Below, one piece after another: positions 32,226-47,644 of a stretch of DNA of 55,654 nucleotides. Every line of letters begins with the position of its first letter. Within the stretch, counting starts at the first letter, position 1. A program made the translations under genes and the position numbers. The notes under the pieces were generated by a model. The model saw only the letters and a program-made list of their open reading frames with translations, did not search any database and had not been told where the DNA came from. Origin of the DNA: Thermodesulfovibrio sp. (GTDB lineage Bacteria; Nitrospirota; Thermodesulfovibrionia; UBA6902); NCBI GenBank assembly GCA_026982355.1, contig JALSHG010000077.1, positions 1 to 55,654 of the forward strand, read 5' to 3'.

Positions 32226-34712
32226 CTACAGCGCCCTCTCGATCTTCACCGCAACAGCGGGCGCCCCGCCGTTTAAAGACAGCCTCGTAAGGTTGTTTAT
32301 CTTTGCATGCGGGAAATGGGCGGGCACGAATGCCGTGCCGGGGGGGACATCACCCGATATCCTGGCCTTTATGTAAACCGTGCCCCTCCTCGAGGTAGCC
32401 CTGACATAGCTGTTGTCGGAAATGCCGTATTTCCTGCCGTCCTCTTCGCTTATCTCAAGCAGCGCCTCGGAGACGACGAGGTCGAGCGAGTTGGACCTTG
32501 CCGACATACTGCCCGAATGCTGGAGTATATCCCTTACGGCAAGACGCAGGGGATATTCGGCGTCGGGCTCTTCATCCACGCTGTAGGCGACGGGATTGAA
32601 CGCAGGCTTGGGCGCCTCCTCCCCGGGCGTGAGACCCGGCAGTGAATTTATCTCTTCGGAGATGCCCGCCAGGTTTTTGACCTTCAGGTCATTTCCCATG
32701 GAAAGCGCAAGGTTCCTCAGTATCCGCCAGTCAGGCAGCGACTGGCCCGTGGGATCGACCACCTTGTATGTCTTCTGCATGATTCCGGCGGCGCTGGTAA
32801 GTGTGCCGTCCTTCTCCCCCCAGCTTGAGGCGGGCAGGACCACATGCGCCAGTTTCGCAGTGTCTGTAAGCGCTATGTCCTGCACTATCAGGAAGTCCAG
32901 CGCCTTCAGCCTGCCGGCCACCTTCGCGCTGTCGGGAAAGGTTATGACCGGGTCCTCGCCCATGATGTAGAGGGCATTGAGCGAGCCCGGCTCATACAGC
33001 ATCTCCTGCACGCCCTTGCCGGGCTTTTCAACAGGCGCGTACCCCGGTCCCGCATCCGGGTTTACGCCCATCAGGTAAGCGCCGAAGGTGTTTGAGTATT
33101 CCGCGGGTATCTGCAGGGCGTCCGGCCCGTCCCCCAGCAGGATGATCAGGTCAGCCGCGGCAAGCACGGTGTTAAGGCTGTTGGTGTTTTCGGATATGCC
33201 GAGCGACAGGGAAAGCATCCTGTTTTCAGCGCGTGCAAATGTCTCTGCAGCGGTTATGATCTCCTGCTCGCTTATCCCGGTGATGCCCGAGACCTTCGCT
33301 GTGGTGTAGTCCTCAAGCAATGCCTCGAGAGAGTCGAACCCCGGTATCTTCGAGACCTTTTCCCTGTCGAAGAGTCCCCTGTCGATCACCGCCTTCATTA
33401 TCCCGTTGATAAAGGCGACTCCGGTGCCCTGTTTTATCCTGAGCCGCTGCGTGCCGTGCCTCGTCAGTTTCGTGTCCCTGCTGTCGGCCACGATAAGCTG
33501 CGCGCCTTCCCTCTTCGCCCGGAGGATATTGATGCCGAAGATGGGATGCGTGACGCTCAGGTCGGACTCGACAATCAGGATGACATCCCTGCCGAGGGGC
33601 GATCTTATGTCCATGCCGCGGCTCTTCATGCCGAATGCCGCCTCCCATGCCTTCTGCACCCTTGCATGGCCGAAGGCGGCGGATGAGTCTATATTGCCGG
33701 AGCCGATGATATCCCTCATGAACTTCTGCAGCATGTAGTTGTCTTCATTGGTGCACCTCGGGGAGCCGAGGGCGCCGATTGAGTCCGGGCCGTGGGCGTC
33801 GATGATGGAACGGATGTTCTTGGCGATGTGGTTCAGGGCCTCATCCCACGGCACGGGCATGAGCTCGTCCTCTATTCTTATCATCGGTGTCCTGAGGCGG
33901 TTTTCACTGTAAATGTAGTCAAAGCCGAACCTCCCCCTTCCGCAGAGGTTGCCGTCGTTTATGCCCGCGCCTTCCCTGCCCCTTGAGCGCATGATCTCAC
34001 CTTCCCGGATCCCGAGGGTGAGGGTGCAGCCGCAGCCGCAGAACGGGCATATGGTGTCCTTTTCATCCAGAAACCAGGCGCGTCCCTTGAACTTGTACGG
34101 TTTGCTCAGGATCGCGCCGGTGGGGCATATGTCGATGCACTGGCCGCAGAAATCGCATTCCAGTATCTCCCCGAAGGCGGGCTGCACCACTGTGGGGAAT
34201 CCCCTGCCGATCAGGCCCAGCGCGCCCCTGCCCTGGTGCTCTTCGCATATCCTCACGCACTTGCCGCAGAGTATGCACCTGTTTGAGCTTAACTCTATCA
34301 GCGGGCTCCTGACATCAGAGGTCACTTCTTTCCTCGGCCTCCTGAACCTTGCCTCGGGCTTGCCGTATTCATAGGCCAGGTCCTGGAGCGCGCACTCGCC
34401 CGCCTTGTCGCACACAGGACAGTCAAGCGGATGATGAACCAGGAGGAACTCCAGCACGGTCTGCCTGAGCTTCCTGAGCTTGGGGGTGTCCGTGTTCACC
34501 ACCATTCCGTTCTCAGCGGGGCTCGAACATGCCGCGAAGAGCCTTCTCTGGCCCTCGACCTCGACTATGCACATCCTGCATGAGCCGTAAGGCGTGAGCC
34601 TCTTGTCATAGCACAGGTTGGGTATCTTTATTCCGTTTGCCAGCGCAGCCTGGAGAATAGTGCTGCCTTCTTCAGTTGTGATCCGTTTGCCGTTTATTGT
34701 TAACTCTATCAT
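32226..34712 (-). CDS. NuoG/FdhA-like iron-sulfur subunit, copy 1, without catalytic Cys/Sec
   Basis: 828 residues: [2Fe-2S] (C34, C45, C48, C62), His-Cys3 cluster (H94, C98, C101, C107), two [4Fe-4S] clusters (CILCGKCVRIC, CDFCGQCIDIC), then a complete molybdopterin-type oxidoreductase with its own [4Fe-4S] site (CPFCGCGC, and NLCGRGRFGFDY). The overall plan is that of NAD-linked formate dehydrogenases, but where these have Cys or Sec before His (CARVUH-type) this protein has SAAFGH, so Gly replaces the metal ligand. It is probably an electron carrier or acts on an unknown substrate. Its ATG overlaps the NuoF stop by 4 bp. It is about 60 percent alike to copy 2 by eye. Confidence 0.85.
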   Translation of the reverse strand: MIELTINGKRITTEEGSTILQAALANGIKIPNLCYDKRLTPYGSCRMCIVEVEGQRRLFAACSSPAENGMVVNTDTPKLRKLRQTVLEFLLVHHPLDCPVCDKAGECALQDLAYEYGKPEARFRRPRKEVTSDVRSPLIELSSNRCILCGKCVRICEEHQGRGALGLIGRGFPTVVQPAFGEILECDFCGQCIDICPTGAILSKPYKFKGRAWFLDEKDTICPFCGCGCTLTLGIREGEIMRSRGREGAGINDGNLCGRGRFGFDYIYSENRLRTPMIRIEDELMPVPWDEALNHIAKNIRSIIDAHGPDSIGALGSPRCTNEDNYMLQKFMRDIIGSGNIDSSAAFGHARVQKAWEAAFGMKSRGMDIRSPLGRDVILIVESDLSVTHPIFGINILRAKREGAQLIVADSRDTKLTRHGTQRLRIKQGTGVAFINGIMKAVIDRGLFDREKVSKIPGFDSLEALLEDYTTAKVSGITGISEQEIITAAETFARAENRMLSLSLGISENTNSLNTVLAAADLIILLGDGPDALQIPAEYSNTFGAYLMGVNPDAGPGYAPVEKPGKGVQEMLYEPGSLNALYIMGEDPVITFPDSAKVAGRLKALDFLIVQDIALTDTAKLAHVVLPASSWGEKDGTLTSAAGIMQKTYKVVDPTGQSLPDWRILRNLALSMGNDLKVKNLAGISEEINSLPGLTPGEEAPKPAFNPVAYSVDEEPDAEYPLRLAVRDILQHSGSMSARSNSLDLVVSEALLEISEEDGRKYGISDNSYVRATSRRGTVYIKARISGDVPPGTAFVPAHFPHAKINNLTRLSLNGGAPAVAVKIERAL

Positions 34713-36586
34713 TCTGCCGCTCCTTTTCCTGATTTTGCCGCTGCCGCCGTTTCCACCAGTTCCGACGGTTCACCCTCGAAACCGGCGGGTAGAACTTTTA
34801 TGGAGTTGAATTTGCAGGTATCGTAACAGCTTCTGCAGCGAACGCAGAGATCCTGTATTATCCGGTGTGGTTTTTTCTTCTCCCCTACAATTGCCTTTGA
34901 CGGGCATCCCCTCAGGCACGCGCCGCAGCCCTTGCAGAGTTCCTCGATTATATGGAATGAACAGAGCTCGCGGCATATGCCGGCCTTGCACCATCTGTCT
35001 TTTATATGGGACTCGTATTCATCCCTGAAGTATCTTATCGTGGTGAGCACGGGATTCGGGGCCGTCTGCCCCAGGCCGCAGAGGGATGTTGCTATGATGT
35101 CGTGGGAGAGGTCCTCGAGGGTCTCTATGTCCCCTTCCTTTCCGCGACCCTCGGAGATATCGGTCAGTATGTCGAGCATTATCTTGGTGCCCACCCTGCA
35201 GGGGGGGCACTTGCCGCATGACTCCTCGGCCGTGAATTCAAGGAAGAACTTCGCCATGCCGACCATGCAGTTGTTGTTGTCCATGACGACCATCCCGCCG
35301 GAGCCCATGATGGCGCCGGTCTTGACCACGTCTTCGTATGTGACGGGGATGTCTATGAGGCTCTCCGGGATGCAGCCGCCGGAAGGGCCGCCCATCTGCA
35401 CGGCCTTGAATTTTCTGCCCCTGCCCTTGATGCCGCCCCCTATGTCGTTTATGATGGTCCTGAGCGGAATGCCCATCGGAACCTCCACAAGACCGACGTT
35501 GTTCACCGCGCCGGTCAGGGCAAAGACCTTTGTGCCCGGGCTTTTCTCTGTGCCGAGGTTCCTGTACCACTCCGCGCCGTGCAGGATGATCGGGGAGATG
35601 TTCGCGAGAGTCTCGACATTGTTGAGCACGGAGGGTTTCTCCCAAAGGCCCTTGTGGGCCGGGAAGGGGGGCCTCGGCCTCGGCATTCCGCGCTTCCCTT
35701 CGATGGAGCGCATGAGCGCCGTCTCTTCACCGCAGACGAATGCGCCTGCGCCGAGGTATATCTCGAGGTTGAAGTCAAAGCCGCTGTCCAGGATGTTCTT
35801 GCCCAGAAGCCCTGCCTCGGTGGCCGCGTCTATGGCCATCTGGAGCCTCTTGACCGCCAGCGGATACTCTGCCCTCACATAGATATAGCCCATGTTTGCG
35901 CCGATGGCCCTTGCGCCTATGATCATGCCCTCGATAACGGCATGAGGGTCGGCCTCCATGATGGACCTGTCCATGAATGCGCCGGGGTCTCCCTCGTCAC
36001 CGTTGCAGAGCATGAATTTCGTGCCGGACTGCACCTTTGCGCAGAATTCCCACTTGAGCCCCGTCGGGAAGCCGGCGCCGCCCCTGCCCCTGATGCCGGA
36101 GTCCTTTACGACCTTTATTATCTCCCCGGGGGTCATCTCCGTCAGGGCCTTTGCAGCCGCCATGTAGCCGTCCCTGGCAATGTATTCCTCTATCTTTTCG
36201 GGGTCGATGAGCCCCTTGTTCCTGAGAGCCCTGAGAACCTGGTGCTTGAAGAACGGTATTTCGCTCATCACGGGGATGGCCTTTCTCTTCGCGGGCATTT
36301 TATACATGAGCTTCTGCACGGGTCTTCCCTTTACAAAATGTTCTTCCACGAGATGGGGTATGTCCTCGGGCCGCAGCTTCTGGTAGAATATCTCGTCGGG
36401 ATACACCGCAATCACGGGACCACCCGCGCACAGGCCGTTGCATCCCGTAAGCACGATGCCGATTTCCTTTTCAAGCGACCTCTTCTTCAGTTCATCCTCA
36501 ATGGCTTCCTTTATCTTCAGCGACCCGGCGGATACGCAACCCGTTCCTGCACATACCATAAGACTGACACGCTGTTGCTCGGACAT
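34709..36586 (-). CDS. NuoF/HydB-like NAD(P)H-binding flavoprotein subunit, copy 1
   Basis: 625 residues. Thioredoxin-like [2Fe-2S] domain (CAGTGC, TGCNGLC), FMN/NADH domain (SGIRGRGGAGFPTG, NGDEGDPGAFMDRSIME), SLBB, [4Fe-4S] site (ESCGKCPPCRVGT, SLCGLGQTAPNP) and a C-terminal 2x[4Fe-4S] ferredoxin (CKGCGACLRGC, CVRCRSCYDTC). It is the NAD(P)H entry or exit subunit, as in HydB of bifurcating hydrogenases. GGAGG precedes the ATG. Translationally coupled to NuoG copy 1, and close to the copy-2 pair upstream, which shows a tandem duplication. Confidence 0.9.
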   Translation of the reverse strand: MSEQQRVSLMVCAGTGCVSAGSLKIKEAIEDELKKRSLEKEIGIVLTGCNGLCAGGPVIAVYPDEIFYQKLRPEDIPHLVEEHFVKGRPVQKLMYKMPAKRKAIPVMSEIPFFKHQVLRALRNKGLIDPEKIEEYIARDGYMAAAKALTEMTPGEIIKVVKDSGIRGRGGAGFPTGLKWEFCAKVQSGTKFMLCNGDEGDPGAFMDRSIMEADPHAVIEGMIIGARAIGANMGYIYVRAEYPLAVKRLQMAIDAATEAGLLGKNILDSGFDFNLEIYLGAGAFVCGEETALMRSIEGKRGMPRPRPPFPAHKGLWEKPSVLNNVETLANISPIILHGAEWYRNLGTEKSPGTKVFALTGAVNNVGLVEVPMGIPLRTIINDIGGGIKGRGRKFKAVQMGGPSGGCIPESLIDIPVTYEDVVKTGAIMGSGGMVVMDNNNCMVGMAKFFLEFTAEESCGKCPPCRVGTKIMLDILTDISEGRGKEGDIETLEDLSHDIIATSLCGLGQTAPNPVLTTIRYFRDEYESHIKDRWCKAGICRELCSFHIIEELCKGCGACLRGCPSKAIVGEKKKPHRIIQDLCVRCRSCYDTCKFNSIKVLPAGFEGEPSELVETAAAAKSGKGAAE

Positions 36587-36607: not shown

Positions 36608-39073
36608 TTATTTTACTCTTTCAATCTTCACTGCATCCAGACGGCTGCATGTATTTCCGGAAAAGTGTGTAAGCTCATTTATACCTCCCGAGGGGAAATG
36701 AACCGGCGTGGAGACCACTCCCTCCGGCACTGCGTCCGTGACCTTTGCCCTCAGGTATACGGCCCCCCTCCTCGAGGTGATCTTTATATGGCTTTCATCG
36801 GATATCGCATGTCTTTCAGCATCTTTTTCATTTATCTCAAGGAATGCCTCGGCCTGCACGAGCTTCAGGGCCTCGGACCTCGTGGACATGTTGCCGGAGT
36901 GCTGTAGCACGTCCCTTGTAACGAGGGTGTAAGTGAACTCGCTGTCACAGGGCTCTTCAGGCTCGTACGCAACCGGATGAAATGCAGGTCTCGGCGCGCC
37001 CTCCGCTTCCCTGCGGCCGCCTGCGATAAAGTCATCCGCCTCTTTCGTAATGTCCTGAAAACTCTTTGCGCCGAGGTTTATCCCCATGGCCAGCCCGAGG
37101 TTTCTCAGTATCTGCCAGTCGGGCTGGCTCTTGCCTGTTGCCTCGACCACTTTGCGGATTCTCTGCCTGAGTCCCCCGGCGTTGATGAAGTGTCCCTCTT
37201 TTTCCCCCCAGCTGCTGGCAGGCAGCACCACGTTTGCCAGTTCGGCCGCCTCTGTCATGACTATGTCCTGGACAACGAGGAAGTCAAGGGACCGGAGTGT
37301 GTTCTTTATCTTTCTCGAGTCGGGCATGCTGACCAGCGGGTCTTCGCCCATGATATAGAGCGCCCTGAGATGGCCGGGCTTATACAGCATGTCGAATACG
37401 TCCATGCCGCCCCCGCGGGGCATGATGCCCGCCTCAAGCATGCCATAGGTATTGCAGTACTCCGCCGGCACCTGCAGGGATGAAGGCTCCTCCCCGAGCA
37501 GTATGAGCAGATTGGCTGCCGCAAGCGCCGAGCCGGGGCCCTTGTTGTTCTCGGACACGGCAAGGGGCATGATTACAAGCCTCCTCGGTGCGTTTGCAAA
37601 TGTAACGGCCGCATCAGTGACCGCCTCTCCCGTCAGCCCGGTGATCTCGGATACCATTGCCGGCGTATACTCCTTCACCACTGCCTCGAGCGAGGAAAAT
37701 CCCCTGATGCCCGAGACCCTGTCCCTGTCAAAAAGACCCCTGTCCATTATTACGTTCATCATGCCGTTTAAAAGGGCCACCAGTGTGCCCGGCCTCAGCT
37801 GAAGCCAGGTATTGCTGTGCCTCGTGAGCTTTGTCTCCCTGTAGTCCGCCACCAGCAGCCTGGAGCCCTCCCTCTTTGCCCTGAGTATGTTGAGCCCGAA
37901 GACCGGATGTGTAATGGTGGGGTCGGATTCAAGCACGAGTATCACGTCCCTGCCCAGAGGGGATGCGAGGTCCGCAGGATTGCTCCCGATCCCGAAGGAG
38001 AGGGAAAATGCCCTCAGGGCGCCGGCATAGCCGAATGCCTCGGAGGAGGCTATGTTGCCGCTCCCCAGCCCTGCGCGCATGAATTTCGCGAGCATGTAAT
38101 TGTCCTCGACCGTGCACCTCGGCGAGCCTATTGCACCGATGGAGTTCGGGCCGTGCGCGTCCCTGATCGAGCTGAGGCTCCTGGCCACGTATGTCAGGGC
38201 CTCTTCCCATGAGGCGTCCCTGAATTCATCACCCTCTTTTATAAGTGGCGTCCTGAGGCGGTTTTCACTGTAGATGTAGTCAAAACCGAACCTGCCCCTG
38301 CCGCAGAGGTTGCCGTCGTTTATGCCCGCGCCTTCCCTGCCCTTTGAGCGCAGTATCCGCCCTTCCCTGATCCCCAGTGTCAGGGTGCATCCAACGCCGC
38401 AGAAAGAGCAGATGTTCTCTTTTTCTTCAAGAAACCACGGCCTTGCCTTGTATTTGTAGGGCTTGCTGATCAGTGCGCCTGTGGGGCATATGTCGATGCA
38501 CTGGCCGCAGTAGTCGCATTCAAGCACCTCGCCGAAGGCGGGCTGCACCACGGTGGGGAACCCCCTGCCGATCAGGCCCAGCGCGCCCCTGCCCTGATAC
38601 TGTGAGCATATCCTCACGCACTTGGCGCACAGGATGCACCTGTTTGAAATAAGCTCGATCAGCGGGCCCCTTACATCAGGCTGCGCGTGTTTCCTTTCAC
38701 CTGTAAACCGCGTCTCGGGCACGCCGTACTCAAAGACAAGGTCCTGCAGCGCGCACTCCCCGGCCTTGTCGCACTCGGGGCAGTCAAGGGGGTGGTGAAC
38801 GAGGAGAAATTCCAGCACGGACTGGCGGACCCTCCTGACCCTCGGGGAGTTTGTCTTTATAACCATTCCCTCCCTGGCGGGATGTCCGCAGGCAGAGGCA
38901 AGCTTCCTGCCTCCTTCTATCTCGACGACACACATCCTGCACCCCCCGTAGGGCCTGAGTCTCTTGTCAAAACACAGGTTGGGTATCTTTATGCCGTTGC
39001 GCCTCGCTGCCTCAAGGATGGTGATACCTTTCTCTACGGATAGTTTCCTGTCATCTATGGTTATCTCTATCAT
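36608..39073 (-). CDS. NuoG/FdhA-like iron-sulfur subunit, copy 2, without catalytic Cys/Sec
   Basis: 821 residues with the same cluster plan as copy 1 (C34, C45, C48, C62; HHPLDCPECDKAGEC; CILCAKCVRIC; CDYCGQCIDIC; CSFCGVGC). At the formate dehydrogenase active-site position it reads SEAFGY: both the Cys/Sec and the conserved His are lost, a further step than in copy 1. The rest of the molybdopterin fold is kept to the C-terminus (SHIKITSRRGAVYLRAK). It probably has a structural or electron-transfer role. The start has GGAGGG upstream and follows NuoF copy 2 by 47 bp. Confidence 0.85.
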   Translation of the reverse strand: MIEITIDDRKLSVEKGITILEAARRNGIKIPNLCFDKRLRPYGGCRMCVVEIEGGRKLASACGHPAREGMVIKTNSPRVRRVRQSVLEFLLVHHPLDCPECDKAGECALQDLVFEYGVPETRFTGERKHAQPDVRGPLIELISNRCILCAKCVRICSQYQGRGALGLIGRGFPTVVQPAFGEVLECDYCGQCIDICPTGALISKPYKYKARPWFLEEKENICSFCGVGCTLTLGIREGRILRSKGREGAGINDGNLCGRGRFGFDYIYSENRLRTPLIKEGDEFRDASWEEALTYVARSLSSIRDAHGPNSIGAIGSPRCTVEDNYMLAKFMRAGLGSGNIASSEAFGYAGALRAFSLSFGIGSNPADLASPLGRDVILVLESDPTITHPVFGLNILRAKREGSRLLVADYRETKLTRHSNTWLQLRPGTLVALLNGMMNVIMDRGLFDRDRVSGIRGFSSLEAVVKEYTPAMVSEITGLTGEAVTDAAVTFANAPRRLVIMPLAVSENNKGPGSALAAANLLILLGEEPSSLQVPAEYCNTYGMLEAGIMPRGGGMDVFDMLYKPGHLRALYIMGEDPLVSMPDSRKIKNTLRSLDFLVVQDIVMTEAAELANVVLPASSWGEKEGHFINAGGLRQRIRKVVEATGKSQPDWQILRNLGLAMGINLGAKSFQDITKEADDFIAGGRREAEGAPRPAFHPVAYEPEEPCDSEFTYTLVTRDVLQHSGNMSTRSEALKLVQAEAFLEINEKDAERHAISDESHIKITSRRGAVYLRAKVTDAVPEGVVSTPVHFPSGGINELTHFSGNTCSRLDAVKIERVK

Positions 39074-39120: not shown

Positions 39121-40965
39121 TTATTCCTCAAGCAGCGCCATCGGGTCGCCCTTGTAATCGGCGGGTCCGATTATTATTGATTTGAACCTGCACGTATCGT
39201 AACAGGTCCTGCACTGTATGCACACCTCCTGGATGATGCGGTGTGGTTTCTTCTTTTCGCCGATGATCGCCTTTGACGGACATGCCCTCATGCATGCCCC
39301 GCATCCCGTGCAGACCTTTTCGTTTATGAAAAATGTGGTGAGCTTGCGGCAGACGCCCACCTTGCACCATTTATCCTTTATGTGGGACTCGTACTCGTCC
39401 CGGAAATACTGTATAGTTGTGAGCACGGGGTTGGGAGCCGACTGCCCGAGGCCGCAGAGCGAACCTTCGATGATGTCGTATGAGAGCTCTTCGAGTATCT
39501 CTATGTCTCCCTCCTTGCCGCGGCCCTCTGCAAGGTCGTTGAGCTTGTCGAGCATTATCTTTGTTCCCACCCTGCACGGGGGGCACTTGCCGCATGATTC
39601 GTCGGTGGTGAACTCAAGGAAAAACTTCGCCATGCCCACCATGCAGTTGGTGTTGTCCATGAACACCATGCCGCCCGAGCCCATTATGGCCCCTGTCTTC
39701 TGAATGTCCTCGAATGTCACGGGCGTGTCGATCAGGCTCTCGGGTATGCAGCCGCCGGAAGGGCCGCCCATCTGCACGGCCTTGAACTTTCTCCCCCTTC
39801 TGGCGCCCGGCACGCCGCCGCCTATGTCGTAGATGATCTGCCTTATGGTCATGCCCATGGGAACTTCGACCAGTCCGGTGTTGTTGATTGCGCCGGTAAG
39901 CGAGAAGACCTTTGTGCCCGTGCTCTTTTCAGTGCCGAGGCTCTTGAACCAGTCCGCGCCGTTCAGGATGATCTGGGGTATTGCCGCGAGGGTCTCGACA
40001 TTATTAAGCACCGTCGGCTTTCCCCACAGTCCCGACTCCGTGGAGCGGGGAGGGGTCAGCCTCGGCATGCCCCGCCTGCCTTCGATGGAGAACATGAGCG
40101 CGGTCGACTCGCCGCAGACAAAAGCACCCGCCCCCTGGTATATCTCAAGGTCGAAGTCAAAGCCGCTGTCCAGGATGTTTTTGCCCAGAAGCCCCGCCTC
40201 GGTGGCCGCGTCTATGGCCAGTTGCAGGCGATGGACCGCCAGGGGATACTCCGCCCTTACATATATATAACCCTTGCTCGCGCCGATGGCCTTTGCGCCT
40301 ATGATCATGCCCTCGATAACGGCATGTGGGTCGGCCTCCATGATGGACCGGTCCATGAATGCGCCGGGGTCTCCCTCGTCGCCGTTGCAGCACATGTACT
40401 TCCGGTCCGAAACCATCCTCGCGCAGGATTCCCATTTAACGCCGGTGGGAAAGCCGGCGCCGCCCCTGCCCCTGATGCCCGAGTCCTTTACGACCTCTAT
40501 TATTTCCCGGGGGGTCATCTCCGTGACGGCCTTTGCAGAGGCGAGATAACCGTCCCGTGTGATGTAATCCTCTATCTTTTCGGGATCGATGATTCCTTTA
40601 TTCCTCAGCACCCTGAGCACCTGGTGTTTGAAAAACGGTATCTCGTGCATGCTCGGAATGGTGAGCTTCCCGGTGGGCTCCTTGTACATGAATTTTTCAA
40701 CGGGCCTGCCCTTGACGAAGTGCTCCTCGACCAGGTACGGCACGTCCTCAACCTGTATCTTTTCGTAGAATATTTCATCAGGATGGACCGTGATTATCGG
40801 CCCCTGGGCGCAAAAGCCGTTGCAGCCTGTCAGGACCACGTCTATCTCGTTTTCAAGCCCCCTCTTTTTCAGTTCTTTCTCAAAGGCTTCCTTGACCTTG
40901 AGGGACTTGGTCGCCACACAACCACTTCCTGCGCATACCATTAAGTTCGCACGAAATCTTCCCAT
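39121..40965 (-). CDS. NuoF/HydB-like NAD(P)H-binding flavoprotein subunit, copy 2
   Basis: 614 residues with the same domain order as copy 1: CAGSGC and TGCNGFC in the [2Fe-2S] domain, GRGGAGFPTG and NGDEGDPGAFMD in the FMN/NADH domain, ESCGKCPPCRVGT, and a ferredoxin end (CTGCGACMRAC, CIQCRTCYDTC). AAGGAG precedes the ATG. It is the upstream member of the tandem NuoF-NuoG pairs and lies just after the HndB-like gene, which suggests NuoE (receiver fusion)-HndB-NuoF-NuoG form one complex. Confidence 0.9.
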   Translation of the reverse strand: MGRFRANLMVCAGSGCVATKSLKVKEAFEKELKKRGLENEIDVVLTGCNGFCAQGPIITVHPDEIFYEKIQVEDVPYLVEEHFVKGRPVEKFMYKEPTGKLTIPSMHEIPFFKHQVLRVLRNKGIIDPEKIEDYITRDGYLASAKAVTEMTPREIIEVVKDSGIRGRGGAGFPTGVKWESCARMVSDRKYMCCNGDEGDPGAFMDRSIMEADPHAVIEGMIIGAKAIGASKGYIYVRAEYPLAVHRLQLAIDAATEAGLLGKNILDSGFDFDLEIYQGAGAFVCGESTALMFSIEGRRGMPRLTPPRSTESGLWGKPTVLNNVETLAAIPQIILNGADWFKSLGTEKSTGTKVFSLTGAINNTGLVEVPMGMTIRQIIYDIGGGVPGARRGRKFKAVQMGGPSGGCIPESLIDTPVTFEDIQKTGAIMGSGGMVFMDNTNCMVGMAKFFLEFTTDESCGKCPPCRVGTKIMLDKLNDLAEGRGKEGDIEILEELSYDIIEGSLCGLGQSAPNPVLTTIQYFRDEYESHIKDKWCKVGVCRKLTTFFINEKVCTGCGACMRACPSKAIIGEKKKPHRIIQEVCIQCRTCYDTCRFKSIIIGPADYKGDPMALLEE

Positions 40966-41113: not shown

Positions 41114-41497
41114 TTAATACGTTGTTTCGCTTCCGACAACCATGGCGTATTTCTCAACCACGTTGCCCTTGAGGATATGCTCGTCGAATATCTCTTTTAT
41201 CTTTTTTTCGTTAAGCTCGACGTATTTGACCGGAGGGCCGCCCGCTATCTCCACGGTCGCCATGGGCTCCCTGCTGCACAGGCCCGCACAGCCGGACGTG
41301 GTGACGATCACATCCTTGACGTCGGCCTTTGCCATCTCGTCCATCAGGGCGGTCATAATCGTCCGTGCGCCCGCTGCTATACCGCATGTTCCCATATGAA
41401 CCGTGACCTTCGCCCTGTAGCCGCCTTCCCTGACGGCAAAGGTCGCCTTGTGCTGCTCCTTGATTTTCTTTAAGTCATCTATCGTGAGTCTCGGCAT
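41114..41497 (-). CDS. HndB-like thioredoxin-fold [2Fe-2S] protein
   Basis: 127 residues, like HndB of NADP-reducing hydrogenases: HMGTCGIAAGARTIM, then VTTSGCAGLCSREPMATVEI. Cysteines are C38, C70 and C74; the family typically shows this incomplete first pair. It likely carries electrons next to the NuoF-like subunits. GGGGGA lies upstream of the ATG. It sits between the receiver-NuoE fusion and NuoF copy 2. Confidence 0.85.
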   Translation of the reverse strand: MPRLTIDDLKKIKEQHKATFAVREGGYRAKVTVHMGTCGIAAGARTIMTALMDEMAKADVKDVIVTTSGCAGLCSREPMATVEIAGGPPVKYVELNEKKIKEIFDEHILKGNVVEKYAMVVGSETTY

Positions 41498-41529: not shown

Positions 41530-42420
41530 TCAGGCCTTTGCCCCCACTGTCCTGTATTCATCAATAATCTGCATTACTTTCTTGGGAGTCACCGCGCTGT
41601 GGGTATCATGGTCAATGACCATGACCGGCGCAAGGCCGCAGGCGCCGAGGCAGCGCACGGCCTCGAGTGAGAATTTCCTGTCCTCTGTTATCTCACCGAC
41701 GCCGATATGCAGGTTCTCCTTTATCTTGTCCAGCACTTCATCAATGCCCTTTACATAGCATGCAGTGCCGAGGCAGACCTTGATGATATGGTCGCCGCGG
41801 GGCTGCATGGTGAAGAACGAGTAAAAAGACACCACGCCGTGGACCTCGGCCGCGGGTATGTTCAGCCCCTTTGATATCCGTTTCTGCACAATGGGCGGGA
41901 GGTATCCCACTATCTCCTGTGCCCTCTGCAGGACCGGTATAAGGCTGCCCGGCTTGTCCCTGTAACTGCTTATCATCCTGTCCAGCTCGGCCATCATGGA
42001 GGGCGGAAACTCTTCCTCTTTTTTCTTTGCCTCGGCAGGGACGCTCTTCTGCTTCCACTCTATGGCCCTGGCGACAACGTCCATCAACACCACGGGGGTA
42101 AATGGCTTGGGAACATAGTCTATGATCCCGAGTTCAAGCGCATCCTTGATCGTCTCCTGCGAGGGATACCCGGTGATGATGAGAACACCCGTCTCCGGCC
42201 TTGATTTCTTTATCCACTTTATGAGGGTTATGCCGTCCACCTCCGGCATCTTGAGGTCGGTAATAACAAAGTCGTACGGCTTTTGCTCCATTGCAATTAT
42301 AGCCTCTCTCCCGCCCGAGGCCCCGTCAATGTTGTATCCTTCAGCCTCAAGAATTCTCTTGCAGCTTTTTATCACCACAGGCTCGTCATCCACCACCAGG
42401 ATTTTGATGTCATCAGCCAT
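41530..42420 (-). CDS. Response-regulator receiver domain fused to NuoE-type [2Fe-2S] subunit
   Basis: 296 residues. The N-terminal receiver (1-125) is intact: acidic D11 and D12, phospho-acceptor D55, T83, and K105-P106. A short charged linker follows, then a full NuoE domain (residues 140-296) with helical start LVLQRAQEIVGYLP-like and [2Fe-2S] ligands C216, C221, C257 and C261. Receiver domains normally control output by phosphorylation, and here the output is an electron-transfer subunit. AAGGAGGG precedes the ATG. It lies in the operon with a HATPase protein and a second receiver protein. Phospho-control of electron flow is inference. Confidence 0.9.
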   Translation of the reverse strand: MADDIKILVVDDEPVVIKSCKRILEAEGYNIDGASGGREAIIAMEQKPYDFVITDLKMPEVDGITLIKWIKKSRPETGVLIITGYPSQETIKDALELGIIDYVPKPFTPVVLMDVVARAIEWKQKSVPAEAKKKEEEFPPSMMAELDRMISSYRDKPGSLIPVLQRAQEIVGYLPPIVQKRISKGLNIPAAEVHGVVSFYSFFTMQPRGDHIIKVCLGTACYVKGIDEVLDKIKENLHIGVGEITEDRKFSLEAVRCLGACGLAPVMVIDHDTHSAVTPKKVMQIIDEYRTVGAKA

Positions 42421-42589: not shown

Positions 42590-44038
42590 TTACTGCTCTA
42601 TAAAACCGCTGACATCCCAGTATTTCCATTTAAGATATCCGTTTATCGCCCTTGCCACTTTTTTGCCGGCGCCCATTGCCAGGATAACCGTTGCAGCGCC
42701 CGTGACTATATCGCCCCCGGCGAACACGCCCCTCTTGGATGTCATGCCGGTCTCTTCCTCAGCGATTATATAACCCCTCCTGTTCAGTCTGAGGTCGGGC
42801 AGGGTTTTCAGCAGGAGCGGATTCGCCTTTGCGCCGAGCGCGGGGATGGCCACGTCTATCTCCATTTCAAACTCGCTGCCCTCCACGGGAACCGGCCGTC
42901 TCCTGCCGCTTTCATCAGGCTCTCCAAGCTCCATCCTTATGCATTCAACCGCGCGAAGATTCCCGTTGCCGTCATCAAGGAACCTCACGGGATTGGTCAG
43001 GAGCACGAACTCCACGCCCTCTTCCTTTGCATGGTGTATCTCCGCCTTCCTCGCGGGCATCTCGGCCTCTGAACGCCGGTAGACAAGGTACACCTTCTCC
43101 GCCCCGAGCCGCAGTGCAACCCTTGCGGAGTCCATTGCCACGTTGCCTGCCCCGAACACGGCAACCCTCCCGGGCCTCTTTATGGGCGTGTCGTATTCAG
43201 GGAAGAGATATGCCTTCATCAGGTTGGCCCTTGTCAGGAATTCATTGGCGGAGTAGACACCGTTGAAGTTTTCCCCGGGTATGCCGAGGAACATGGGCAG
43301 CCCCGCCCCTGTGGCGATAAAGCATGCATCATAGCCTTTTTCATTCAGTAGTTCATCCACGGTAAAGAGCCTGCCGATCACGGCATTGGTCACTACCTCG
43401 ACTCCTAATTTTCTTATGTAGCCGACTTCCCTCTCCACGATCACCTTCGGCAGCCTGAACTCCGGTATGCCGTAGACCAGCACTCCTCCGGGCTTGTGCA
43501 ATGCCTCGAACATGGTAACCTCGTGGCCGGACATTATAAGGTCCGAGGCGCATGTCAGGCCGCCGGGGCCCGAGCCTATGATGGCGACCTTCCTGCCCGT
43601 GGCACGGGGTTTCTCCGGTATCCTGACCTCGCCTTTTTCAGCCTCGTAATCAGCAGCGAACCTCTCGAGGTTGCCTATGGCAACGGGATCGCCCTTTTTG
43701 CCCACGATACAGCGGGCTTCGCACTGGTTTTCCTGCGGGCATACCCTTCCGCATACAGCGGGCAGGGCGTTTTTCTGTTTGATCGTATAGCATGCCTCAA
43801 GGAAATTCCCTTCCTTGATAAGTCTGATGAACTGCGGTATCTCAACCTCCACGGGGCAGCCTTCCCTGCACGGAGGATTTTTGCATGAAAGGCATCTTGA
43901 TGCCTCCTCCACCGCTTCCTCAGGGGTGTATCCGAAAGGGACCTCCCTGAAATTCCGGGCCCTTTCCGCGGGCTCCTGCTCCTTCATCCTTACCCTGGTT
44001 TTTGTCTTTTTGTCCTGTTTTTCAGGTTCTGTTCCCAT
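42590..44038 (-). CDS. nfnB: NfnB-type (large) subunit of bifurcating ferredoxin:NADP oxidoreductase
   Basis: 482 residues of the glutamate-synthase-small-chain family. Two [4Fe-4S] sites lie in CLSCKNPPCREGCPVEV and CGRVCPQENQCEARC. The FAD-binding motif GSGPGGLTCASDL and the NADPH-binding motif GAGNVAMDSARVALRLGA follow, and it ends GGDIVTGAATVILAMGAGKKVA. With NfnA it couples NADPH with NADH and ferredoxin by flavin-based electron bifurcation. nfnA lies immediately upstream with a one-base gap, which separates this from a stand-alone GltD. GGGGGTG precedes the ATG. Confidence 0.9.
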   Translation of the reverse strand: MGTEPEKQDKKTKTRVRMKEQEPAERARNFREVPFGYTPEEAVEEASRCLSCKNPPCREGCPVEVEIPQFIRLIKEGNFLEACYTIKQKNALPAVCGRVCPQENQCEARCIVGKKGDPVAIGNLERFAADYEAEKGEVRIPEKPRATGRKVAIIGSGPGGLTCASDLIMSGHEVTMFEALHKPGGVLVYGIPEFRLPKVIVEREVGYIRKLGVEVVTNAVIGRLFTVDELLNEKGYDACFIATGAGLPMFLGIPGENFNGVYSANEFLTRANLMKAYLFPEYDTPIKRPGRVAVFGAGNVAMDSARVALRLGAEKVYLVYRRSEAEMPARKAEIHHAKEEGVEFVLLTNPVRFLDDGNGNLRAVECIRMELGEPDESGRRRPVPVEGSEFEMEIDVAIPALGAKANPLLLKTLPDLRLNRRGYIIAEEETGMTSKRGVFAGGDIVTGAATVILAMGAGKKVARAINGYLKWKYWDVSGFIEQ

Positions 44039-44039
44039 G

Positions 44040-44873
44040 TCACCCCCCTAACGCCGCCTTGTATCTCTCGAAGGCCGTTCTTTCTTCGTCAAGATACATT
44101 TTCTGTCTTTCCATGAGCAGGTCGAAGTCGACCTTATGTCCGTCAAAGTCCGGACCGTCCACGCAGCAGAACTTTGTCTCACCCCCGACCTCCACCCTGC
44201 AACCGCCGCACATCCCTGTGCCGTCGATCATGATCGAGTTCAGGCTGACCACGGTCTTTACATTGTATTTCTCCGTTGTCTTGCAGACGAATTTCATCAT
44301 TATGGCGGGGCCGATGGCGATCACCAGCTTTATGTCGGTGTGCTCCTTCAGGAGCTCTTCAAGGGGAATGGTCACAACTGCCTTTCTGCCGCAGGAGCCG
44401 TCATCCGTTGTGACGATCAGCTCGTCCGAGACCTGCCGCATCCTGTCCTCCCAGAACAGGAGGGACTTCGTCCTTGCGCCTATGATTGAAAAGACATGAT
44501 TGCCGGCATGCTTCAACGCCCTTGCTATGGGATAAACGGGAGCTATACCCACACCCCCGCCGACGCATACCACCTTTCCGAAATTCTCTATGTGGGAATT
44601 GATGCCGAGGGGGCCTATCACGTCGGATATGAAATCCCCTTCATTTAGTGTTCCGAGGTGATGAGTGGTCTTGCCTACCTTCTGGAAGACGGTGGTCAGG
44701 GTTCCTCTCTCCCTGTCGAAGTCCGCTATGGTCAGCGGGATTCTCTCCCCTTCCTCGTGTATCCTGAGGACGATGAAATTGCCGGGCTCCGCTTTTTTTG
44801 CAATGTCTTTTGCGTCGATTTCAAACAGGGTTATATTCTCCGACAACTCCTGTTTTTTTAGAATTTCAAACAT
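44040..44873 (-). CDS. nfnA: NfnA-type (small) subunit, FAD/[2Fe-2S]
   Basis: 277 residues of the ferredoxin-NADP reductase type: FAD-binding barrel (ENITLFEIDA, RIPLTIADFDRE), NAD-binding fold (VCVGGGVGIAPVYPIARALK), and a C-terminal [2Fe-2S] segment GMCGGCRVEV, FCCVDGPDFDGH. Typical length is about 280. Together with NfnB it forms the bifurcating enzyme; a sulfide dehydrogenase role is the known alternative for this pair. GGGAGGG precedes the ATG. Confidence 0.9.
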   Translation of the reverse strand: MFEILKKQELSENITLFEIDAKDIAKKAEPGNFIVLRIHEEGERIPLTIADFDRERGTLTTVFQKVGKTTHHLGTLNEGDFISDVIGPLGINSHIENFGKVVCVGGGVGIAPVYPIARALKHAGNHVFSIIGARTKSLLFWEDRMRQVSDELIVTTDDGSCGRKAVVTIPLEELLKEHTDIKLVIAIGPAIMMKFVCKTTEKYNVKTVVSLNSIMIDGTGMCGGCRVEVGGETKFCCVDGPDFDGHKVDFDLLMERQKMYLDEERTAFERYKAALGG

Positions 44874-44932: not shown

Positions 44933-45700
44933 TCACGTCTCCAAAGGGAATACCCTTGCCAGCCATAACAACCAGCCCTCCGAGAGATGTTCCTTGAGTA
45001 AAGCGGCCATAACATCGTTCGCCTTGGTATTGATCTCCCTCAGCTCGGCATTCATGGGTGAAAGCAGGTCGCTTCCCTGTCCGCTGCTCGAATATATTCT
45101 CGCAAAAGGCTGGCCGGCCTTGAGTTTGTCTATGCCCTTTATGAATTCAACATACATGAGGTTGCCCGTCAGAAGCCAGTACCTGAGGTCGCAGCCCATT
45201 TCCCATAGCCCGTTTTTCGTCGGTCTTGCCCACGTGCCTTCCTTGTAGAAGATAACGGGATTTTCCTTGTCCCTGAGGGAAACCACGGAGTCCCTGAATT
45301 CATCGATGAAGGCCTGCCTGAGTATCCATCCCCTCTTGTCGAATATCTTTTTTGCGACATTGATCATGAACTCGGGTGTAAACGGTTTTTCGAGGTACTG
45401 CTCCGCTCCGAGCCTTGTCGACTCCTTTGCATCCTCAAGGGTGGGATAGCCTGTAATCATGACGACATCGGTGCCGGGTTTGATTATCCGCGCCTCCTTG
45501 AGCACGGTCATTCCGCTTATATCGGGGAGCCTTATATCGGAAATCAGCAGGTCAAAGTCTTCCTTTGCCAGTTTATTGAGGGCGTCTTCTCCTTTCTCAA
45601 CGGTCGAGATGCTGTAGCCTTCGGCGCCGAGAATCCTCTTGCAGCTTAATGTTACAACAGGGTCGTCATCAAGTATTAAAATCTTCCCCTTTTTTTCCAT
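44933..45700 (-). CDS. Response-regulator receiver domain fused to a GcvH-like domain
   Basis: 255 residues from the ATG at 45700, which has GGAGGG upstream; a GTG at 45706 lies too close to that site. The receiver domain (about 1-120) is complete, with D55 as phospho-acceptor and K105-P106. Residues about 153-253 look like glycine cleavage H protein: GLWEMGCDLRYWLLTGNLMYV, DKLKAGQPFARI, DLLSPMNAELREIN and GWLLWLARVF. The lipoylated lysine of GcvH is replaced by Gly207, so no lipoyl group is expected. The domain may be a docking module for a redox partner. It lies between the HATPase and nfnA. Confidence 0.82.
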   Translation of the reverse strand: MEKKGKILILDDDPVVTLSCKRILGAEGYSISTVEKGEDALNKLAKEDFDLLISDIRLPDISGMTVLKEARIIKPGTDVVMITGYPTLEDAKESTRLGAEQYLEKPFTPEFMINVAKKIFDKRGWILRQAFIDEFRDSVVSLRDKENPVIFYKEGTWARPTKNGLWEMGCDLRYWLLTGNLMYVEFIKGIDKLKAGQPFARIYSSSGQGSDLLSPMNAELREINTKANDVMAALLKEHLSEGWLLWLARVFPLET

Positions 45701-45831
45701 ATACACCCTCCTTATAAACCGGCCGCGGAGTGCGAGTTTTCACAATAGACCGTAGTACGGAACTCGTAACACGCAACGCAGGTATAAAAAATGTAAATTT
45801 ATATGTTAAGTTCTTGCATTGATGTTGAACG

Positions 45832-46383
45832 TTATTCTATCATATTACCTGTACTATTTAGCCACGTACTTATATCGTCTTTAATAATTTTTATCACCTC
45901 GGGTGTGGTTACGGGCACACCGTCCAGTTCCCTTTTTATTTCAGATGTATCCAGAAGATATGTCCTGCCGTTTCTCTCATGTTCGAATATGAAATCGATA
46001 TCAGGGTTGGAGGCGATAAGCACGGCCATGGTCTGCGCGATATCACCAAGGGGTTTTCTGTCTATGTGGTCATAGCGGAAGGTGGCGGTGACGGTGGTGC
46101 CCTTTCCCTCTTCGGTCTTTATATCTATATCTCCCATGCTTTCCCTTGCGGCCTGCGCGAGCAGGGGGATCCCCATGCCCACCCGTCTTGTGGTCCTCGT
46201 GGTATGGAAAGGATCGCGGGCATGTTCCAGCATTTCCCTGTCCATGCCCCTGCCGTTGTCGGATATCTCTAAAAGGAGAAGATTCTTTTTGATATCCTCA
46301 ACTATCCTTATCTTTATCCTGTCCGCGCCCGCTGTTATCGAGTTTTCCGCGATGTCGAGAATGTGCAGCGATAAGTCTTCCAT
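45832..46383 (-). CDS. Lone histidine-kinase-type ATPase domain protein
   Basis: 183 residues from the ATG at 46383; the longer open frame upstream lies in repeat DNA. A single HATPase_c domain: N-box LDIAENSITAGADRI, G1 box DNGRGMD, G2 box GMGIPLLAQAA, and GKGTTVTATF. It has no sensor, no H-box and no dimerisation domain. The C-terminal 60 residues are unfamiliar. Such proteins sit beside bifurcating hydrogenase genes in some anaerobes. Here it heads an operon with two receiver fusions, making it a candidate kinase, anti-factor or allosteric partner for them. Confidence 0.85.
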   Translation of the reverse strand: MEDLSLHILDIAENSITAGADRIKIRIVEDIKKNLLLLEISDNGRGMDREMLEHARDPFHTTRTTRRVGMGIPLLAQAARESMGDIDIKTEEGKGTTVTATFRYDHIDRKPLGDIAQTMAVLIASNPDIDFIFEHERNGRTYLLDTSEIKRELDGVPVTTPEVIKIIKDDISTWLNSTGNMIE

Positions 46384-46421
46384 AGGAAACAGGGAGTTCC
46401 GCCTTATGTGCCGGTAAATCA

Positions 46422-46636
46422 ACCTTACAGTGGCATAAAAATGCCGCCCGCGGGCAGGGGAGTCAGGCGGAAAAGCTTTATCCGCGATACCTTGGAGAGT
46501 ATTCCGCACGGCTTATCGACATCCTTTGGAATCTCACTCTCCGTTACGTCCTGCAATAAAGACATGTTTCCGATATCCCATCGCTTTATAAAGGTTTTAC
46601 GGCGGACTCCCCTGCCGGCTTGTGCAACATTAAGGT
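46422..46636. repeat. 215-bp copy of dispersed element (right flank of the redox operon)
   Basis: Ends ACCTTACAGTGGCATAAAA and GTGCAACATTAAGGT; inner arms as in the copy at 31611-31825, to which it is nearly identical, in direct orientation. It starts 39 bp from the HATPase ATG. Confidence 0.88.
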
Positions 46637-46777: not shown

Positions 46778-46910
46778 TCTAAGCAAGAACGCGGGGGGCA
46801 TTCTTTATTCATTCCTGAATTTTAAACTGATGTTGCATGAAGAGGCCGGTGCATGTACCGGCCCGGAGGGAATTATCCTGCCGTGAGGCTGAAAAGCGCC
46901 TCTATACATC

Positions 46911-46993
46911 AATGCGGCATAAACGTGCAGGGAAGCCCGCCGGGCCCCCCGCACTCTCCTGCACGCGGGCGGTGTTTTATGCAACTGTTCAGT
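46911..46993. repeat. Dispersed element, about 83-bp copy before the NarL-type gene
   Basis: AATGCGGCATAAACGTGCAG at the left, GGCGGTGTTTTATGCAACTG at the right, GC-rich arms between. It ends 21 bp before the regulator ATG. Confidence 0.7.
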
Positions 46994-47014
46994 GACGGAA
47001 GGGGAAAGACGGTG

Positions 47015-47644
47015 ATGAGAATACTCGTAGCCGATGACCATGCACTTGTCAGGGAAGGTCTCAGGCGGATTCTGTCGGAGATGCCGGATGTCATTGCCGT
47101 TGATGAGGCTGCCGCCGGCCAGGAAGTCCTGCGGAAAGCCTGGGAGAGGGATTACGACGTAATCCTGCTGGACATCTCCATGCCGGGCAGGAGCGGACTG
47201 GATGTATTGAAACAACTGAGAAACGACAAGCCGTCACTTAAAATCCTGATGCTGAGCATGCATCCCGAAGACCACTATGCCGTGCGCGCAATAAAGGCCG
47301 GCGCATACGGATACCTGACAAAGGGAAGCAATGCGGATGAACTGCTTGATGCCGTGCGGAAAGTCGCCTCCGGCAGGAAATACATCAGTCCCTCGCTTGC
47401 CGAAACCCTCGCCTGTCACATGGAGAACGGTTCAGGGAAACTGCTGCACGAGACACTCTCGGACCGCGAGTTTGAGGTGATGTGCATGATCGCCTCGGGA
47501 AAGACGGTGAAGGAGATCGCCTCGGAGCTGTCGCTGAGCGTCAAGACCATCAGCACCTACCGTACCCGCATCCTGTGCAAGATGGGCATGAAGAACAACG
47601 CGCAGCTGACACATTACACGATACAGAACCGGCTGCTGGGCTGA
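47015..47644 (+). CDS. NarL/FixJ-type response regulator with LuxR helix-turn-helix
   Basis: 209 residues from the ATG at 47015; the open frame further upstream lies in repeat DNA. Receiver domain with D7/D8, phospho-acceptor D53 and lysine in GYLTKGS, then a LuxR-type DNA-binding domain (LSDREFEVMCMIASGKTVKEIA, SVKTISTYRTRI). No cognate sensor kinase is adjacent. The lone HATPase protein and the redox operon are divergent neighbours, so the gene may regulate them, but this is only positional. Confidence 0.92.
   Translation: MRILVADDHALVREGLRRILSEMPDVIAVDEAAAGQEVLRKAWERDYDVILLDISMPGRSGLDVLKQLRNDKPSLKILMLSMHPEDHYAVRAIKAGAYGYLTKGSNADELLDAVRKVASGRKYISPSLAETLACHMENGSGKLLHETLSDREFEVMCMIASGKTVKEIASELSLSVKTISTYRTRILCKMGMKNNAQLTHYTIQNRLLG

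Follow-up and report, generated by a model that had tools for sequence, protein, structure and literature searches.

RESULTS

A receiver domain fused in frame to a NuoE subunit

The protein described here belongs to a known electron-transfer subunit family and carries a new regulatory domain: a response regulator receiver is fused to a NuoE subunit, and this fusion, which we call RR-NuoE, is real and conserved. The gene was found in the window, a 55,654-nt stretch (positions 1 to 55,654, forward strand) of contig JALSHG010000077.1 (assembly GCA_026982355.1) of a Thermodesulfovibrio sp. from the class Thermodesulfovibrionia (Nitrospirota). It forms one unbroken ORF with an ATG start (42420..41530 on the minus strand) and encodes 296 amino acids that are laid out as follows.

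41530..42420, minus strand: RR-NuoE fusion; receiver, residues 7-116; linker, about residues 122-140; NuoE helical N-domain, residues 140-199; [2Fe-2S] thioredoxin-like domain, residues 205-290

A preliminary description of this locus had proposed that both domains were complete and shared one reading frame, and the ORF and the Pfam matches bore this out. Residues 7-116 matched Response_reg (E = 2e-29), and residues 147-290 matched 2Fe-2S_thioredx (E = 4e-51; profile positions 2-145 of 145). All of the residues that had been named were present under the same numbering, namely D11, D12, D55, T83, and K105 in the receiver and the four [2Fe-2S] ligands, C216, C221, C257, and C261; the switch aromatic is Y102. 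RR-NuoE therefore has the hallmarks of the receiver family (PF00072; fold, acidic pair, phosphoacceptor Asp, Thr/Ser, Lys, and switch aromatic), as well as those of the NuoE/HydC/StnA family (PF01257; helical N-domain and thioredoxin-like domain with four Cys ligands). It had also been suggested that such a subunit is an unusual output for a receiver. Neither this kind of output nor the receiver-NuoE fusion was found described in the open-access literature that we searched, where hits were judged mostly from titles and abstracts.

In a single-chain AlphaFold2 model (mean pLDDT, 84.9; pTM, 0.46), a (beta-alpha)5 receiver was followed by a disordered stretch in the linker (residues 127-135; pLDDT < 50), four NuoE helices, and the thioredoxin-like domain. 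Because the pTM was only 0.46, the receiver and NuoE portions had no fixed relative position in this model.

The fusion is distributed across a class of Nitrospirota

The preliminary description had cautioned that the ORF might be an assembly join between two genes, and a premature stop in one relative (L041) could be seen as favoring a chimera or an annotation artifact. We rejected this explanation, which we regard as vanishingly improbable, because 83 distinct sequences, taken from assemblies made independently, shared the same junction and had linkers of similar length (20-35 residues). The fusion was also present in several single-contig assemblies (G014, G040, G120, G187, and G310), and the stop or frameshift in the relative mentioned above (L012/L041) occurred after residue 185, not between the receiver and NuoE domains.

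Most of the 41 nearest genomes carried the full fusion. When strong matches were defined as those with E <= 1e-60, they were detected in 56 of the 246 genomes in a sample of the phylum, and all 56 were members of the same class. Within the class, the fusion was found in 110/163 genomes, a count that takes in a few shortened copies or matches of the RR-NuoE* type (see below), and in 69/98 genera. The named relatives that bear the fusion were Nitrospirota MAGs, one of which was titled Thermodesulfovibrionales, and every ORF with both domains among the fetched loci came from this Nitrospirota group. No fusion from outside the class was found in the plasmid records listed, in which the matches were to NuoE alone or a receiver alone, and none from outside the Nitrospirota was found among the best 80 genome-contig matches. 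Nearly all of the fusion-less class genomes that were checked were also without a closely matching HydB. A different arrangement was seen in genome G016 (L232:6760-7071), which has kept the 2Fe2S-HydB-NuoG genes; its NuoE is represented by the last third only (residues 181-289) and the receiver is missing.

Phosphorylation sites and iron-sulfur ligands are conserved

All 83 of the distinct fusions were scored for conservation. Every one had the four [2Fe-2S] cysteines (83/83), and the residues of the phosphorylation site were nearly invariant: D11 was conserved in 82/83 fusions, D12 in 81/83, D55 in 80/83, T83 in 79/83, Y102 in 80/83, and K105 in 81/83. The alpha4-beta5 region was among the best-conserved parts of the receiver. 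When the window sequence was compared with that of a congener, dN/dS was about 0.015 for the receiver (0.004/0.263), 0.07 for NuoE (0.021/0.299), and 0.09 for the linker; that is, the receiver value was at or below the NuoE value. These ratios indicated that both domains of RR-NuoE are under strong purifying selection.

One could argue that the receiver serves only a structural purpose or is passively carried along, having come from a receiver gene located side by side with nuoE, and that its phosphorylation has no effect. A single fusion event between neighboring operon genes would be compatible with this idea, as would three of the 83 fusions (L150, L151, and L195), in which D55 was replaced by Y, N, or H and the Fe-S cysteines were intact. 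Phosphorylation must therefore be dispensable at least in those three proteins. However, a passenger would be expected to decay, and D55 was retained in 80/83 fusions whose receivers had a mean pairwise identity of 55%, with a dN/dS of about 0.015 in the window comparison. We consider a passive receiver quite improbable.

The RR-NuoE operon

RR-NuoE lies in an operon with genes for further electron transfer and signaling proteins. The genes around it in the window, listed in order of position, are as follows.

32226..34712, minus strand: NuoG2 (NuoG/FdhA-like); G348 invariant in 67/67
34709..36586, minus strand: HydB2; closest match of the class-wide HydB that follows RR-NuoE; best structures, A. 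woodii HydB and A. mobile HydB
36608..39073, minus strand: NuoG1 (NuoG/FdhA-like); Gly in place of the FDH catalytic Cys/Sec
39121..40965, minus strand: HydB1 (BfuB/NuoF type); N-terminal 2Fe-2S, FMN/NADH domain, SLBB, NADH_4Fe-4S, and two C-terminal 4Fe-4S
41114..41497, minus strand: HydD-like 127-amino-acid [2Fe-2S] ferredoxin-like protein; next gene downstream of RR-NuoE
42590..44038, minus strand: NfnB-like (GltA) subunit; adjoins full RR-NuoE only in close relatives of the window, and also occurs in a second operon type
44040..44873, minus strand: NfnA-like (PRK06222) subunit
44933..45706, minus strand: receiver-GcvH fusion; GcvH-like domain lacks the lipoyl lysine; conserved neighbor upstream of RR-NuoE
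45832..46509, minus strand: HydE-like HATPase_c protein that lacks HisKA; SLHILDIxENS conserved as start motif
46853..47644, plus strand: LuxR-type response regulator; divergent from the operon, with a similar gene preceding the NfnAB/RR-NuoE* operons of relatives

Downstream of RR-NuoE, HydB was present at 68 of 70 loci, a NuoG-like gene at 69/70, and the 127-amino-acid 2Fe-2S protein at 50/70. The window operon contained additional genes (NfnA, NfnB, and a second HydB/NuoG pair) that were absent at this position in most relatives. Thus, there were two HydB/NuoG pairs and a single RR-NuoE in the window, whereas most class members had one pair at the locus.

Two further features of the window were noted. 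A gene at 11588-13930 on the plus strand, preceded by a NuoE gene and a CO-dehydrogenase-like ORF, encodes a 780-amino-acid HydB/NuoF-type subunit with two C-terminal CBS domains; it is a second NADH module in the window that bears a fused regulatory domain. At 26223-30889 on the minus strand, there are two tandem overlapping Hsp70/DnaK-like ORFs, one of which has a DUF3731 C terminus.

RR-NuoE resembles HydC/StnA subunits

RR-NuoE had previously been called a respiratory-type subunit, and this part of the description did not hold up. The best fold matches of its NuoE domain were HydC and StnA chains, and HydC was nearest in both sequence and fold (A. mobile 7t2r_C, T. kivui 8a6t_C, and A. woodii 7q4v_C). 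In addition, the HydB encoded in the operon has bifurcating-type Fe-S motifs, and complex I has a NuoE of its own, encoded elsewhere in the genome (contig C12); that protein was only 29% identical to the NuoE part of RR-NuoE and was placed in another clade of the NuoE-domain tree. This placement and the separate nuo locus led us to reject a complex I NuoE identity.

By the published definition (PMC9304861), a bifurcating BfuB lies next to BfuC and has a 2Fe-2S motif at its N terminus, NADH_4Fe-4S, and 4Fe-4S motifs at its C terminus. At the sequence level, these BfuB Fe-S motifs were found beside a BfuC-type subunit in the operon. Most of HydB2 could be aligned with the HydB proteins of A. woodii and A. 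mobile, and the aligned part took in the 2Fe-2S motif at the N terminus and the 4Fe-4S motifs at the C terminus. We infer that RR-NuoE is a HydC/StnA-type (BfuC) subunit of the soluble electron-bifurcating NAD(H)/ferredoxin enzyme class, with bifurcation assigned by homology.

The other subunits were considered as well. NuoG2 was nearest to formate dehydrogenase alpha subunits, and the position of the formate dehydrogenase catalytic Cys/Sec was occupied by Gly in 67/67 NuoG2 proteins and 4/4 NuoG1 proteins. Because of the Gly at this position, NuoG2 is probably an electron transfer subunit, and an NAD-dependent formate dehydrogenase (FdsABG-like) was rejected. Since NfnAB adjoins RR-NuoE, NADP(H) is a plausible third substrate in this organism. 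The architecture of Stn or Nfn-Bfu transhydrogenases was not found, as NfnA, NfnB, and NuoG are encoded by separate genes.

Origin of the fusion and a paralogue that lacks the Fe-S domain

The fusions clustered in the NuoE-domain tree (2 label changes versus 40 in shuffles), where they adjoined HydC proteins of deltaproteobacteria and one Nitrospirota MAG, including receiver-less HydC proteins from PHP-HATPase-NuoE clusters. One deltaproteobacterial sequence without a receiver (L104) was nested among the fusions on a long branch and was treated as unreliable. The fused receivers grouped in a single clade (0.995) that included the RR-NuoE* receivers. These trees are compatible with one fusion event in an operon that already contained a HydE-like HATPase.

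RR-NuoE* is encoded in a second type of operon, NfnA-NfnB-RR-NuoE*-2Fe2S-HydB-NuoG, which was found in several genomes with the full fusion and often came after a LuxR-type regulator and a kinase. It has kept the receiver and the NuoE helices and has lost the Fe-S domain with its ligands; D12 or D55 was altered in several paralogues, and the model of RR-NuoE* had low confidence outside the NuoE helices. The copies in NfnAB-HydB-NuoG operons are as follows.

L144:6404-7219, RR-NuoE* paralogue
L146:7318-8061, RR-NuoE* paralogue
L148:7680-8420, RR-NuoE* paralogue
L149:7443-8183, RR-NuoE* paralogue

As RR-NuoE* persists without the Fe-S domain, the receiver and docking helices appear to be separable from electron transfer, which favors a regulatory or docking role. 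Alternatively, the receiver could be a phosphorylation-dependent assembly or oligomerization module that selects HydB1 or HydB2 as the partner of NuoE, or that controls dimerization of the complex, and it would not gate electrons in the assembled complex. Receivers commonly dimerize on phosphorylation, RR-NuoE* is just a receiver with docking helices, and two HydB/NuoG pairs for one RR-NuoE make the choice of partner a real problem in the window. It cannot be the general reason for the fusion, however, given the one pair per locus in most class members, and we judge an assembly module to be an unlikely explanation.

Signaling genes near RR-NuoE

Within 6 kb upstream of RR-NuoE, we found another receiver gene at 51 of 61 loci and a kinase or HATPase gene at 41/61. 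The individual types were receiver-GcvH (44 loci), HAMP histidine kinase (27 loci), HATPase (25 loci), and PHP protein (20 loci); no recognized signaling gene was found in this interval at 7/61 loci. The cluster kinases carry HAMP, HisKA, and HATPase_c. In the genome of the window, the orthologue of this kinase (72% identity; contig C12:79233-80822) is unlinked to RR-NuoE; it is located next to the complex I genes, together with genes for a PHP protein and a solo receiver. The RR-NuoE clusters also contained solo receivers and NtrC-like sigma-54 activators, and no sigma-54 promoter was found upstream of the operon.

Two of the upstream genes have unusual features of their own. The receiver-GcvH protein is a second odd receiver fusion in the operon and occurs class-wide; the residue at its lipoyl-lysine position was Lys in 10/63 proteins. 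The HATPase_c protein has no DHp domain and is common to the receiver-less clusters of other phyla. It contains an invariant His in SLHILDIxENS, and the conservation of this start motif indicates that the true start of the ORF is probably internal, giving a protein of about 183 amino acids.

These neighbors raised the idea that information flows in the opposite direction and the enzyme serves as the sensor. A change in whether the NuoE cluster is oxidized or reduced, or in how far the complex is assembled, would alter receiver phosphorylation or docking, and the receiver would report electron flow to a kinase, to RR-GcvH, or to the NtrC-like proteins and solo receivers, and thus to gene expression. 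The sigma-54 activators, the presence of several receivers around one kinase neighborhood, and the occurrence of the HydE-like HATPase beside receiver-less HydC are in line with such a circuit. Receivers normally act downstream of kinases, though, we found no case of a receiver that reports on a linked redox domain, and RR-NuoE* has no Fe-S domain to sense with. We think it improbable that the enzyme is the sensor.

DISCUSSION

A model for control of the enzyme by phosphorylation

On balance, we favor the view that two-component phosphorylation of RR-NuoE probably controls a Bfu-type NAD(H)/ferredoxin complex through its HydC-type subunit. The enzyme would be a soluble flavin and Fe-S NAD(H)/ferredoxin oxidoreductase made up of RR-NuoE, HydB, and a NuoG-like subunit, here with NfnAB. 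The receiver would sit on a flexible N-terminal tether and be phosphorylated at D55 by a histidine kinase, and the prime candidate is the conserved HAMP-HisKA kinase of the clusters, which in this genome is the C12 orthologue. Once phosphorylated, the receiver may dock differently on its own complex, via the alpha4-beta5-alpha5 face or dimerization, and the altered docking could shift the seating or swing of the neighboring NuoE domain and open or close electron flow between NADH/FMN and ferredoxin. The outcome would be a fast posttranslational valve by which the enzyme is made more or less active as the redox state of the cell requires. In this model, D55 phosphorylation, the identity of the kinase, the effect on activity, and bifurcation are the parts that we infer.

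Phosphorylation-dependent control is supported because the fusion is class-wide, the phosphorylation and Fe-S sites are intact, the receiver has a low dN/dS, and two-component genes accompany HydB/NuoG in the operon. It is weakened because the position of the receiver was loose in the model, 3/83 receivers were degenerate, and D12 or D55 has changed in RR-NuoE* proteins; the unlinked kinase in the window genome and the 7/61 loci without a nearby signaling gene also count against it. A more specific and more tentative proposal, for which we see perhaps one chance in three, is that the phosphorelay directly gates electron bifurcation: receiver phosphorylation would move the HydC/StnA-type [2Fe-2S] gate and thereby set NADH-ferredoxin coupling, and RR-NuoE* would be a regulatory subunit without the Fe-S domain.

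Electron-bifurcating NADH/ferredoxin enzymes are central to anaerobes that live near the energy limit, and how they are regulated after synthesis is largely an open question. The fusion suggests that, in these anaerobic Nitrospirota, electron flow may be turned up or down directly by phosphorylation of the enzyme and not only by gene expression. With a receiver on the proposed mobile-gate subunit, D55 is a simple target for asking about direct two-component control, and RR-NuoE may offer a natural switch for engineering.

Comparison with known systems

The closest counterpart of RR-NuoE is HydC of HydABC and HydABCSL (BfuC), which is similar in its NuoE domain and is likewise followed by a HydB with matching Fe-S motifs. 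Known HydC proteins have no receiver, whereas RR-NuoE carries one, and the third subunit here is NuoG/FdhA-like and has neither hydrogenase nor formate active-site residues. The hydE and hydD genes of A. woodii are comparable to the HATPase and 2Fe-2S-type genes in this operon; hydE is a kinase-like ATPase gene in the hydrogenase operon whose role is unexplained, and HydE is reported not to be part of the active enzyme but to be possibly involved in assembly or signaling (PMC3315566), which would also be in keeping with the enzyme-as-sensor idea considered above.

StnABC (Sporomusa ovata, T. sibiricus, and C. saccharolyticus) has a StnA-like NuoE, a StnB-like HydB, and NfnB-like and NuoG-like parts in common with the window operon. 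Stn combines the NfnB-like and NuoG parts in a single protein and lacks NfnA (PMC10482914), whereas in the window these parts are encoded by separate genes, NfnA is present, and NuoE bears a receiver. The C-terminal [2Fe-2S] domain of StnA/HydC has been described as a swinging kinetic gate in StnABC and HydABC structures, and deletion of the StnA/HydC cluster abolishes the coupled reactions (PMC10482914). By analogy, an N-terminal receiver would be well placed to bias the gate or assembly.

Receiver-less PHP-HATPase-NuoE-2Fe2S-HydB clusters in deltaproteobacteria and one Nitrospirota MAG (L066, L068, and L069) have the same gene order, and their NuoE proteins (159-174 amino acids, 56-58% identical) look like the state before the fusion. 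A functional parallel is provided by Rv3143/MSMEG_2064, a CheY-like receiver encoded near nuo genes in actinobacteria that acts on NADH dehydrogenase by protein contact; the stand-alone Rv3143 binds NuoD, and modulation of complex I has been proposed as its role (PMC9274095). Rv3143 contacts NuoD of complex I as an independent protein, whereas the receiver of RR-NuoE is covalently joined to a soluble Bfu-type NuoE subunit.
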